From Parvibaculum indicum (lineage in GTDB: Bacteria; Pseudomonadota; Alphaproteobacteria; Parvibaculales; Parvibaculaceae), in assembly GCF_011762095.1 (NCBI RefSeq), contig NZ_JAASQO010000001.1, forward strand, positions 248,001 through 312,000: DNA of 64,000 nucleotides. The letters are read 5' to 3'. A program made the position numbers and the translations under genes. The notes under the pieces are model-generated. The model saw only the letters and a program-made list of their open reading frames with translations, made no database searches and was not told where the DNA came from. Positions 26,919 through 63,338 of this stretch are shown here, one piece after another. Position 1 is the stretch's first letter. Every line of letters starts with the position of its first letter.

Positions 26919-27608
26919 TTACCGTCTCAGCCGCAGCATCTTCGTCGCCCCTTTCTGAAACTCGTAAGGCACGGGCACCAGCTCGGCCCTTATGCCGTCC
27001 CGTGCAAACTGCGCCAGCACACCGGGCAGATGGCTCGACGGGCGTCCGTCGAGGTTGACGAGCGGAAAGACGCGCACCTCCTCCGCGACACGCAGCAGTT
27101 CGCGCAGCGCCTCTATGTGGAAAGCGAAATCGAGATCGTCGCCGTAAAGGAACAACAGATGCGATGAGAGCGCGAGGCAGAACGCGTTGTCCGCAAACGG
27201 CAGACGCGGCAGTGACGCCTCGACATAGCGCCGCGCAGCTTCACGGCCGTAATCGGCCAGAAAAAGCGCCAGCGCCTCGCGCCTGATCTTCTCGATAGTG
27301 TCCGGCGATCCGTAATGCGACCAGCGGAAGCGATAGCGCGCCTGACGCAGGCCCTCCATCATCGCGCCGCGCGTCTCCTCGAAACGCTGCGCGATCGCCT
27401 TGCCGGGCAAGGCGTAAAGCGGATCGGCGGCGGTCACCCGCGCGCCCGCGGCCGAGGCTTCCGCCGCGAAAGACGACGGCCCCGCCCCCACATCCAGAAC
27501 GGCATGGCGAAGATCCGCCTCCTCCAACGCGAAGAAGGCGCGATACTCCCAGAGGCGCCGCCCCCAGGGCACGATCCCGTCCAGTCTGAATTCCTGCTCC
27601 ATCTCCAT
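26919..27608 (-). CDS. SAM-dependent methyltransferase-like protein (orphan)
   Basis: Class I methyltransferase-like protein (229 aa). SAM motif I reads AVLDVGAGPSSFAAE (residues 36-50), followed by AGARVTAADPLY as motif II. The rest is rich in Arg and aromatic residues. The C-terminal half (LPFADNAFCLALSSHLLFLYGDDLDF) is recognisable as a conserved family without known substrate. Of three nearby starts, the ATG at 27608 was chosen; AAGGAGAG precedes it by about 8 nt. A Trp-rich leader peptide and attenuator-like terminator lie 58-170 nt upstream and could control it. Confidence 0.7.
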   Translation of the reverse strand: MEMEQEFRLDGIVPWGRRLWEYRAFFALEEADLRHAVLDVGAGPSSFAAEASAAGARVTAADPLYALPGKAIAQRFEETRGAMMEGLRQARYRFRWSHYGSPDTIEKIRREALALFLADYGREAARRYVEASLPRLPFADNAFCLALSSHLLFLYGDDLDFAFHIEALRELLRVAEEVRVFPLVNLDGRPSSHLPGVLAQFARDGIRAELVPVPYEFQKGATKMLRLRR

Positions 27609-27661
27609 CACCGGCTCTCCTTTCAGGCCATTTTCGGAAACGGCCTTCTCCGGTGGAGGAA

Positions 27662-27694
27662 ACGAAAAAGGCCGCCTCGAAGCGGGCGGCCTTT
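27662..27694 (-). terminator. Strong hairpin terminator (attenuator 3:4 stem)
   Basis: On the minus strand GGCCGCC (27691-27685) pairs with GGCGGCC (27676-27670). The stem is extended by AAA/TTT and followed by TTTTT. It can end the betaine operon, or act as the termination stem of the leader described at 27723-27776. Confidence 0.8.
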
Positions 27695-27746
27695 CTGTCG
27701 GATCGACGCACGATCTGGTCCAGGGCCACCCTCAGGCGGTCCACCA
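27685..27746 (-). promoter_or_regulatory. Attenuator with mutually exclusive stems
   Basis: Segment 1 (GGACCGCC, 27742-27735, overlapping the second Trp codon and the end of the leader) can pair with segment 2 (GGGTGGCCC, 27731-27723) using seven pairs and one mismatch. Segment 2 (GGTGGCC, 27730-27724) can instead pair with segment 3 (GGCCGCC, 27691-27685), which is the left arm of the terminator. A small GATCG/CGATC hairpin (27701-27715) lies between. This is the layout of an amino-acid attenuator: stalling at the Trp codons would favour 2:3 and read-through. Confidence 0.6.
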
Positions 27747-27776
27747 ACCGATCATCTTGTGCGCGACGTAAGTCAT
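27732..27776 (-). CDS. Trp-rich leader peptide MTYVAHKMIGWWTA
   Basis: A 14-residue reading frame with two tandem TGG codons three to four codons before its stop. Its start is preceded by TGAGGA at 5 nt, a good ribosome-binding site. Its size, the WW placement and the following terminator resemble trp operon leader peptides (E. coli ...KGWWRTS; Sinorhizobium ...SIWWWAR). No trp biosynthetic gene lies downstream in this window. Expression has not been shown; the call rests on the coincidence of RBS, Trp pair and alternative stems. Confidence 0.55.
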   Translation of the reverse strand: MTYVAHKMIGWWTA

Positions 27777-27799
27777 TCGATCCTCATTCGTTGAGCGGG

Positions 27800-27828
27800 A
27801 GACTACGCCCGCCCTAGCTTTTCGCCAA
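27800..27828 (-). promoter_or_regulatory. Candidate promoter for the leader RNA
   Basis: On the minus strand TTGGCG (27828-27823), a 17-nt spacer and TAGTCT (27805-27800) lie just after the end of the dimethylglycine methyltransferase gene. The same -10 word, TAGTCT, occurs in the candidate rpmG promoter at 62740. Confidence 0.35.
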
Positions 27829-27832
27829 GCGA

Positions 27833-28675
27833 TTACTTCGCCTTGCGGTAGTGCATGATGCCCCAGGCGAGATAGCCCTTGTCGGCACCGTTCACCCAGT
27901 GCTCAAGACCCTTGATCATGTTGTCGATATATTCGCGGCTCACGCCGACCTCGACAAGCTTGTCATAGTTCTTCTTGAGCTCCTGCCCCACACGGAAATA
28001 GTGCCGGCGAAGCTGGTCGACATGATCGTCGAAACCGATCTTCTCGAAGCCCATTCCCGTCAGCGTCTTCTCGTAGAAGCCCGGGGACCCGAGGGTGGAC
28101 AGGTGAATGCGGTCGAGGATCGGCTGCAGCACATCCGCCGGGCAGTTATCCGACTGCATCGGGTCGGTGAAGATGAACTGACCGCCCGGCTTCAGCACGC
28201 GGGCCACTTCTTCCATCACCTTGACGCGATTGCCGCTGTGCAGGATCGAGTCCTGCGACCAGACGACGTCGAAGGAATTGTCCTCCGCCGGAATGTCCTC
28301 GAAGCTGCCATGCTTGACCGCGATCTTGTCCGACAGGCCGGCCTTCTCGCTCATCTCGCGATTGATGGCGTTCTGCTTGTCGGAGATGTTCACGCAGGTG
28401 ACGTGACAGCCATAGGTCTCCGCCAGGTAACGCGCAGCCCCGCCATAGGCGGCCCCGATGTCGAGCACCTTGGTATCGGGACCGAGATTCTCGATCTTGG
28501 CCGCGATGGTCTCGTCGGTGCGATGGCTCGCATCGCCGACCGGCTCCACATCGTCCTTGTAGAGACCGATGTGGATGTCCTTACCGCCCCAGATGGTGAA
28601 GTAGAACTTATCCGCATCGTCGCTGTCGTAATACTCTTCCGCCTTGGCGACGGCGTTCGCATTAGGACTCGTCAT
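27833..28675 (-). CDS. Sarcosine/dimethylglycine N-methyltransferase
   Basis: Catalyses the last methylations of glycine-betaine synthesis (sarcosine to dimethylglycine to betaine) using SAM. The 280-aa length is that of the Ectothiorhodospira SDMT. SAM motif I reads VLDIGAAYGGAARYLAE (70-86). The N-terminal AEEYYDSDDADKFYFTIWGG and the C-terminal DHVDQLRRHYFRVGQEL are hallmarks of the SDMT family. The ATG at 28675 overlaps the upstream glycine methyltransferase by 14 nt. Second gene of a two-gene osmoprotectant operon. Confidence 0.9.
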   Translation of the reverse strand: MTSPNANAVAKAEEYYDSDDADKFYFTIWGGKDIHIGLYKDDVEPVGDASHRTDETIAAKIENLGPDTKVLDIGAAYGGAARYLAETYGCHVTCVNISDKQNAINREMSEKAGLSDKIAVKHGSFEDIPAEDNSFDVVWSQDSILHSGNRVKVMEEVARVLKPGGQFIFTDPMQSDNCPADVLQPILDRIHLSTLGSPGFYEKTLTGMGFEKIGFDDHVDQLRRHYFRVGQELKKNYDKLVEVGVSREYIDNMIKGLEHWVNGADKGYLAWGIMHYRKAK

Positions 28676-29477
28676 CGTAGGCCTTCTCCGCAACGTGAAC
28701 GTAAAAGTCGGTTTCCTTCTCGTCGTAGTTCGCCTCGAAGTCGCCATAGGTGGTGATCTTCTGGAAGCCGATCTCATGCATGAGGCGCTTCACATAGGTC
28801 TTGCGCAGCGGGAACATGTTGAGGTGATAGACGCTGTCGTCCGGGAAGGTGTAGCGGAAACGCGCCAGCGAGTCGTCGACATGCTCCGGCTCGGCCGTCA
28901 CCTGGTCGCCGCAATAGTAGTATTTGTGCTTCGTGCTGAAGCCTTCATCCATGATCAGGTCGTAGTTGCGCTGGTCCAGGATGAGGACGCCGTCATGCTT
29001 CAGCGCCGCATAGAATTCGGCAAGCGCCCGGCGACGGTCCTTCTCCTCGAAGAGATGGGTAAAGGAGTTACCGAGGCACACGATGGCGTCGTATTTGCCG
29101 TGGACGTCCTTGTTCAGCCAGCGCCAGTCCGCGCAGATGGTCTGAAGAACGATGCCGTTGTCGCGGCCATTGTCGAACGCCTTGATCAGCATTTCCTTGG
29201 CGCCGTCGACGGTGGTCACGTCGAAACCGGCCTTGGCGAGCTGCACCGAGTGGAAACCTGTACCTGCAGCGACGTCGAGGATCTTGTGCTTGCCGAGCTT
29301 TTTCAGCAGGTCGATGAAGAAACGGCCCTCGCCTTCGGCGCGGCCCTTCCAGTCGATCAGCTGATCCCATTTGTCGACGAAGGATTCCGTGTATTCGTGC
29401 TGATAGTGATCGGATTCACGAACCGCGAGGGGATCCTCGCCGAAATCCTGTTCTTTCTTGAGTACGGTACCAGACAT
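28662..29477 (-). CDS. Glycine/sarcosine N-methyltransferase
   Basis: First enzyme of de novo betaine synthesis (glycine to sarcosine to dimethylglycine, SAM-dependent). The 271-aa protein has SAM motif I ILDVAAGTGFHSVQLAKAGF (66-85), VVTT-like motif II (DVTTVDGAKEML) and YDAIVCLGNSFTHLFEEKD, all typical of GSMT. The start has GAAGGGG 5-8 nt upstream. It is the first gene of the betaine operon, behind a ~400-nt non-coding leader region. Betaine made here would accumulate as a compatible solute under salt stress (known for the family). Confidence 0.9.
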   Translation of the reverse strand: MSGTVLKKEQDFGEDPLAVRESDHYQHEYTESFVDKWDQLIDWKGRAEGEGRFFIDLLKKLGKHKILDVAAGTGFHSVQLAKAGFDVTTVDGAKEMLIKAFDNGRDNGIVLQTICADWRWLNKDVHGKYDAIVCLGNSFTHLFEEKDRRRALAEFYAALKHDGVLILDQRNYDLIMDEGFSTKHKYYYCGDQVTAEPEHVDDSLARFRYTFPDDSVYHLNMFPLRKTYVKRLMHEIGFQKITTYGDFEANYDEKETDFYVHVAEKAYDDES

Positions 29478-63109: not shown

Positions 63110-63338
63110 CGTCATTCCGCCTCTCAATGCCTCTTCGCCACCTCCACCGGGGGGGGTGGCCGGCCGGGAAATTATGCGGGTATCAGAGGAGGCCACTCCA
63201 CTACCACGCCCCGACCGGCCGTGCCCCGCGGACCCAGGAGATGCGGCGGACCTGAGCACCCCACGGGGACACGTTTCGTTGCCGTTCGTCTATCCGCCTC
63301 ACCCCCCAGCAAGGGCGGGAGACTGTGCGGCAACGAGA
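63110..63338 (-). ncRNA. Candidate small RNA between rpmG and the pleD-like gene
   Basis: This 230-nt region has no credible protein. On the minus strand it is preceded by TTGCAA (63373-63368), a 17-nt spacer and CTAAAC (63350-63345), and it ends at the 12-bp terminator at 63083-63109. Its 5' part folds as an 8-bp stem CGTTGCCG/CGGCAACG (63335-63328 with 63284-63277) enclosing an inner CCGCC/GGCGG stem. The middle has further complementary G/C blocks. No known RNA family was recognised; it could also be a long leader or spacer. Confidence 0.35.

Follow-up and report, generated by a model that had tools for sequence, protein, structure and literature searches.

Ribosome-mediated trp attenuators (trpL) occur in enterobacteria and rhizobia, and amino-acid attenuators normally mark genes for biosynthesis, transport or charging. 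The trp attenuator is described in general terms in PMC7298713. Its parts are a small upstream reading frame containing adjacent Trp codons, mutually exclusive pairings and a terminator with a T run. According to PMC7298713 and PMC7143759, the RNA released by the trp attenuator of rhizobia has an activity in trans, and the latter paper gives RcsR1 and rnTrpL the same position of origin. The consensus of the corresponding Rfam model (RF02552) reads I-W-W-W-A-R-stop, which the end of peTrpL given in PMC7298713 resembles.

The window analyzed here, a stretch of 64,000 nucleotides from Parvibaculum indicum, contains a leader with the same ORF, pairings and terminator layout as the trpL of enterobacteria and rhizobia. 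It differs from trpL in that the gene it would control is an orphan methyltransferase gene and not a Trp biosynthesis gene, and in that the same genome has no comparable leader immediately before trpE, trpB or trpS. The standard trp attenuator layout that had originally been predicted was borne out and, by comparison, the leader would work like a trp attenuator. The proposed mechanism is classical; the target is new. Identity as the trpL of a biosynthetic operon was rejected, the downstream gene being the methyltransferase and the trpE-like gene and trpB lying elsewhere. A full-text literature search, to which subscription papers were mostly inaccessible, turned up no paper describing a Trp attenuator that precedes a methyltransferase gene, and none describing one from Parvibaculum.

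The leader shares with rnTrpL/RcsR1 (RF02552) of Sinorhizobium meliloti a 14-residue Trp leader peptide and a similar order of hairpins. It is not located at trpE(G), and it has a Shine-Dalgarno sequence, whereas rnTrpL is described as leaderless in PMC10117765. Identity as RcsR1/rnTrpL was also rejected, as the leader scored 38.5 bits against a gathering score of 60, and a plain terminator without TGGTGG in the G015 genome scored 38.0 bits. The gathering score was reached in none of the 40 family genomes and in none of 337 class genomes, the latter searched with stricter filters and containing no positive. Five further weak RcsR1 matches in the class genomes had no TGGTGG nearby. When Rfam was searched at its curated cut-offs, no match was obtained at the leader.

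Layout of the leader

The minus strand reads, in order, the stop codon of a gene like that of sarcosine/dimethylglycine N-methyltransferase (SDMT) (27835-27833), a pair of promoter-like hexamers, a Shine-Dalgarno sequence, the leader ORF, four segments, TTTTT and the methyltransferase gene. The features are as follows.

27833..28777, minus strand: SDMT-like upstream neighbour (NF041675, 388 bits, below the cut-off of 550)
27823..27828, minus strand: promoter -35-like hexamer TTGGCG, part of the best site in 160 nt
27800..27805, minus strand: promoter -10-like hexamer TAGTCT (TAGATT in many relatives)
27781..27785, minus strand: Shine-Dalgarno sequence of the leader ORF, GAGGA (many relatives have GAGGA or AAGGA)
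27732..27776, minus strand: leader ORF MTYVAHKMIGWWTA, 14 codons, read from the sequence, with its start ATG at 27776-27774 and its stop TGA at 27734-27732
27741..27746, minus strand: tandem Trp codons TGG TGG
27735..27742, minus strand: segment 1, GGACCGCC, pairs with segment 2
27724..27731, minus strand: segment 2, GGGTGGCC, pairs with segment 1 or 3
27684..27691, minus strand: segment 3, GGCCGCCC, pairs with segment 2 or 4
27670..27676, minus strand: segment 4, GGCGGCC, forms the terminator together with segment 3
27665..27669, minus strand: T run TTTTT of the terminator
26919..27608, minus strand: methyltransferase gene, 230 aa, with ATG at 27608 and GTG at 27611 in frame

Direct reading confirmed the predicted 14-codon frame, its Shine-Dalgarno sequence and the tandem TGG codons base for base. 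The three exclusive pairings, 1:2, 2:3 and 3:4, are all present, and the five T are followed by the SAM methyltransferase gene as had been proposed. The coordinates given originally hold, except that pairing 2:3 comprises 8 bp, one more than had been counted. The locus thus has the parts of an attenuator: a leader ORF with a Shine-Dalgarno sequence and tandem regulatory codons, the translation of which is predicted, mutually exclusive pairings, and an intrinsic terminator with a T run between the leader ORF and the gene.

The leader folds more stably than shuffled sequences (z = -3.6), and the part spanning segments 2 and 3 adopts the antiterminator fold (z = -2.6). A layout scan for TGGTGG in a short ORF with a Shine-Dalgarno sequence and a terminator within 130 nt identified one place in the window, the leader. 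The same scan found no occurrence in 100 Markov-simulated windows, a background that is understated by the simulation, since TGGTGG occurs 61 times in the window but on average 21 times in a simulated one, and short ORFs with a Shine-Dalgarno sequence number 4 and 0.39, respectively. Conservation across the family is stronger evidence for the leader than this chance scan.

Conservation and linkage in the Parvibaculaceae

The methyltransferase was present in 27 of the 40 family genomes searched, namely in 24 of the 27 that belong to the genus of the window and in 3 of the 13 from elsewhere in the family. When the upstream DNA was read, the leader layout was found in front of the gene in all 27 bearing genomes, which represent three genera. 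The first Trp codon is kept in every leader and both are kept in 26/27. The exception is the G002 leader (L052), which reads TGG CGG while the near-identical G012 leader reads TGG TGG; the CGG may be a sequencing error or early decay. The nine residues preceding WW have a mean pairwise identity of 20% across the 27 leaders compared to 95% for W-W-T, as expected if only the codons matter. Four or more T follow the terminator hairpin in all 27. Thus, WW is kept along with the hairpins in the relatives, and the opposite pattern, a conserved hairpin without the WW frame, was not seen.

The stop codon after WWTT, which sits within the 1:2 loop, is lost in five leaders (L014, L019, L021, L048 and L053). 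The next in-frame stop is just past segment 2, which lengthens the peptide, and a ribosome that has moved beyond WW would still cover segment 2, so that the attenuator logic would be kept.

In the 1:2 core, in 2:3 and in 3:4, no counted pair is missing from more than one of the 27 leaders, a count for which the segments were located by motif and which therefore leans towards the structure. Covarying stems had been proposed as a check. Between genera there are two double changes: in 1:2 an A-U pair becomes G-C, the window having a G-U form, and in 2:3 a G-C pair becomes A-U; each is probably a single event. Within the genus, no covariation beyond shuffles was detected in an alignment of 22 leaders (A2), because the stems hardly vary. 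In A2, the stems pair in 98% and 99% of cells, while versions slid out of register pair in at most 57% and 64%.

A promoter-like site, TTGGC(A/G) and a -10-like hexamer with 17-nt spacing, was found in all 24 genus genomes bearing the methyltransferase; it was taken as the best site in 160 nt, without a shuffle control. SDMT lies upstream of 18 of these sites and is absent from 6. In many of the SDMT contexts the -35-like hexamer overlaps the last SDMT codons. Over the whole family, the gene directly upstream of the leader is SDMT in 18/27 and another gene in 9/27, with the leader present regardless. That the leader is constant while the upstream gene changes indicates that it belongs to the methyltransferase.

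The possibility was considered that the region is a mere terminator of an upstream GSMT-SDMT operon and that the ORF is coincidental. The terminator hairpin starts about 140 bp past the SDMT stop and could end the SDMT transcript too. However, a gene other than SDMT precedes the leader in a third of the cases, both WW and the alternative 2:3 stem are retained, and a promoter-like site precedes the leader, which together make a simple operon terminator highly improbable. The SDMT-like gene is not part of the attenuator unit.

The true start of the SDMT-like gene is probably further in than the start assigned by the ORF finder. A glycine/sarcosine N-methyltransferase-like gene is located at 28662-29477 on the minus strand (NF051855, 474 bits, above the cut-off of 350), and this pair of N-methyltransferase-like genes, 28662-29477 and 27833-28777, is probably a betaine synthesis operon. 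In four of the genomes with a non-SDMT upstream gene (G003, G004, G030 and G033), a convergent gene is located downstream that resembles, by eye, the hydrolase gene of the window. It is directly next to the methyltransferase in three of them and lies beyond an amino-acid permease gene in G030. This permease gene, of the APC type (PF13520, L093 5053-6432), follows the methyltransferase on the same strand and was seen in G030 only.

A covariance model (R1) was built from 22 leaders, with those of the window, its nearest relative and three from other genera held out. R1 matched strongly once in every one of the 24 genus genomes bearing the methyltransferase, and the held-out matches had E-values of 2.1e-12 (G000) and 1.1e-13 (G015). 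No second strong match was found in the genus, the next among the matches listed being 2.8e-5. The matches listed miss the leaders of G029, G030 and G033, which were found by reading upstream of the methyltransferase. Diverged leaders can thus escape R1, and its failure to match in other genera says little about whether a leader is present there. Eight of the many weak matches, from eight genomes, six of them without the methyltransferase, were read and proved to be terminators without the leader layout; one of these, L102, has TGGTGG.

The tetranucleotide GTCG between segments 2 and 3 (A2 columns 47-50) is invariant in the 22 genus leaders, and is kept even in those whose small hairpin at this place is broken. 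It is perhaps a pause site or a site of pairing in trans.

The original prediction had allowed that the short RNA acts in trans, as reported for rnTrpL in Sinorhizobium. A fuller form of this reading was considered, in which the main role of the released RNA, or of the peptide (compare peTrpL), is in trans and the methyltransferase is a mere neighbour. The trans action of the rhizobial attenuator RNA (PMC7298713 and PMC7143759), the below-cut-off match to the RcsR1 model and the persistence of GTCG are in keeping with such a role. The RcsR1 match is nonetheless untelling, given that a plain terminator scores nearly as well. Moreover, the leader stays with the methyltransferase as the upstream genes change, and the three genus members that lack the methyltransferase, one of them 74% complete, have no strong R1 match, their best weak matches proving on reading to be something other than leaders. 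The peptide is unconserved outside W-W-T, which argues against a role for the peptide as such. A trans role is not required by any finding and, as the main function of the leader, is unlikely.

Ribosome position and the proposed mechanism

The effect of the ribosome on pairing was evaluated by masked folding, in which the part of the RNA covered by the ribosome was removed and a pairing was counted at five or more pairs. In the stalled case the RNA ended at segment 3, segment 4 not yet being made, and in the stop case segment 2 was removed. With the ribosome stalled at either Trp codon, 2:3 formed in all 27 leaders, and with the ribosome at the stop codon, 3:4 formed in all 27; these counts depend on an assumed footprint of 13 nt, are without a shuffled control and test spacing more than energy. 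In this folding, a stalled ribosome thus frees segment 2 and a ribosome at the stop covers it, as in an attenuator. In the ribosome-free RNA, 1:2 formed in 23/27 leaders and 3:4 in 24/27.

From the parts, pairings, spacing, linkage and conservation found in the sequence and by comparison, we infer control by tryptophan, together with a start of transcription and a stalling of the ribosome, as follows. Transcription would begin at the conserved promoter-like site that immediately precedes the leader ORF. With ample Trp-tRNA, the ribosome would pass both TGG codons, reach the stop codon and cover segment 2. The 3:4 hairpin would then form and RNA polymerase would stop at the T run, freeing a transcript of about 130 nt. 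With scarce Trp-tRNA, the ribosome would stall on TGG TGG and cover segment 1, allowing segment 2 to pair with segment 3. The terminator would be blocked and the methyltransferase transcribed.

The leader is thus likely to be a ribosome-mediated transcription attenuator that responds to charged tRNA-Trp and has a single target, the methyltransferase gene that follows it. The proposal that charged tRNA-Trp controls this gene is well supported in sequence comparison by the linkage, the WW codons, the exclusive pairings and the ribosome geometry. They suggest that the methyltransferase serves a response to low tryptophan.

It was also considered whether this leader, like those in front of resistance methyltransferases, senses impaired translation generally, caused by an antibiotic or any other source of stalling, with WW as a convenient stall site. 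The controlled gene is a methyltransferase, and any stall over segment 1 would free segment 2. However, strong conservation within the peptide is limited to WW and the T that follows, there is no further conserved stall motif, and the structure model of the enzyme gives no support for an rRNA target. A general sensor of stalling is therefore quite improbable, more so than a main role in trans, and the reading of charged tRNA-Trp is preferred.

The methyltransferase and the trp genes

The enzyme has a generic Methyltransf_11-type domain and is a class I SAM-dependent methyltransferase with a Rossmann-like fold. The structure model is of class I and confident (pLDDT 86). In the fold comparison, many methyltransferases that act on different substrates fall within about 1.5 Z of one another, and the model is about equally like small-molecule and RNA methyltransferases. 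Searches of Pfam, NCBIfam and PADLOC for a specific function yielded domains of a generic kind, hits well short of the cut-off or no hit at all, and a sequence search of the PDB found no solved relative. The methyltransferase is not known to be tied to tryptophan.

Four Trp-related genes of the genome, trpE, a second trpE/pabB-like gene, trpB and trpS, were examined for a leader of their own. The 600 nt immediately before each, and the 230 nt before a ppiD-like gene, contained no short ORF with neighbouring Trp codons. The trpE gene has a match to TIGR01815 below the cut-off, with a trpG-like match beyond it, and starts 9 nt after the stop of the gene that, by eye, resembles ppiD. The same leader in front of trpE, which would have left the copy at the methyltransferase as a degenerate terminator, was looked for by direct reading and with R1 and was not seen.

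Relatives of the methyltransferase with 30-44% identity occur in cyanobacteria, gammaproteobacteria, Bacillales, Rhodococcus and Haloarcula. The gene neighbourhoods of six plasmid homologues had, by eye, no common theme. Homologues outside the family were read 350-450 nt upstream in 4 of 5 class genomes (G308, with a broken match, was left out), in 8 of 8 contigs, though L077 begins inside the gene, and in 3 of 4 further genomes of the phylum (L089 was left out), and those read had no short ORF with adjacent Trp codons. The enzyme shares the class I fold with the SAM-dependent methyltransferases of Pfam Methyltransf_11/25, but among the homologues read upstream only the Parvibaculaceae genes carry a Trp leader. 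The link between methyltransferase and tryptophan would thus be lineage-specific.

Since attenuators normally mark pathway genes, the codons of this leader offer a clue to the pathway in which the orphan gene takes part. It is conceivable, though we hold it only tentatively, that the methyltransferase family acts in the tryptophan economy, on tryptophan, a precursor, a product or tRNA-Trp. If so, the Parvibaculaceae expose that role, the gene being alone among the Trp-related genes examined in standing under a dedicated Trp attenuator. The hint given by the Trp codons reaches a methyltransferase family that spans cyanobacteria to haloarchaea and makes its role testable.

Elsewhere in the window, a match to the EcpR1 sRNA (RF02500) was found at 63153-63271 on the minus strand, with 88 bits against a cut-off of 60.
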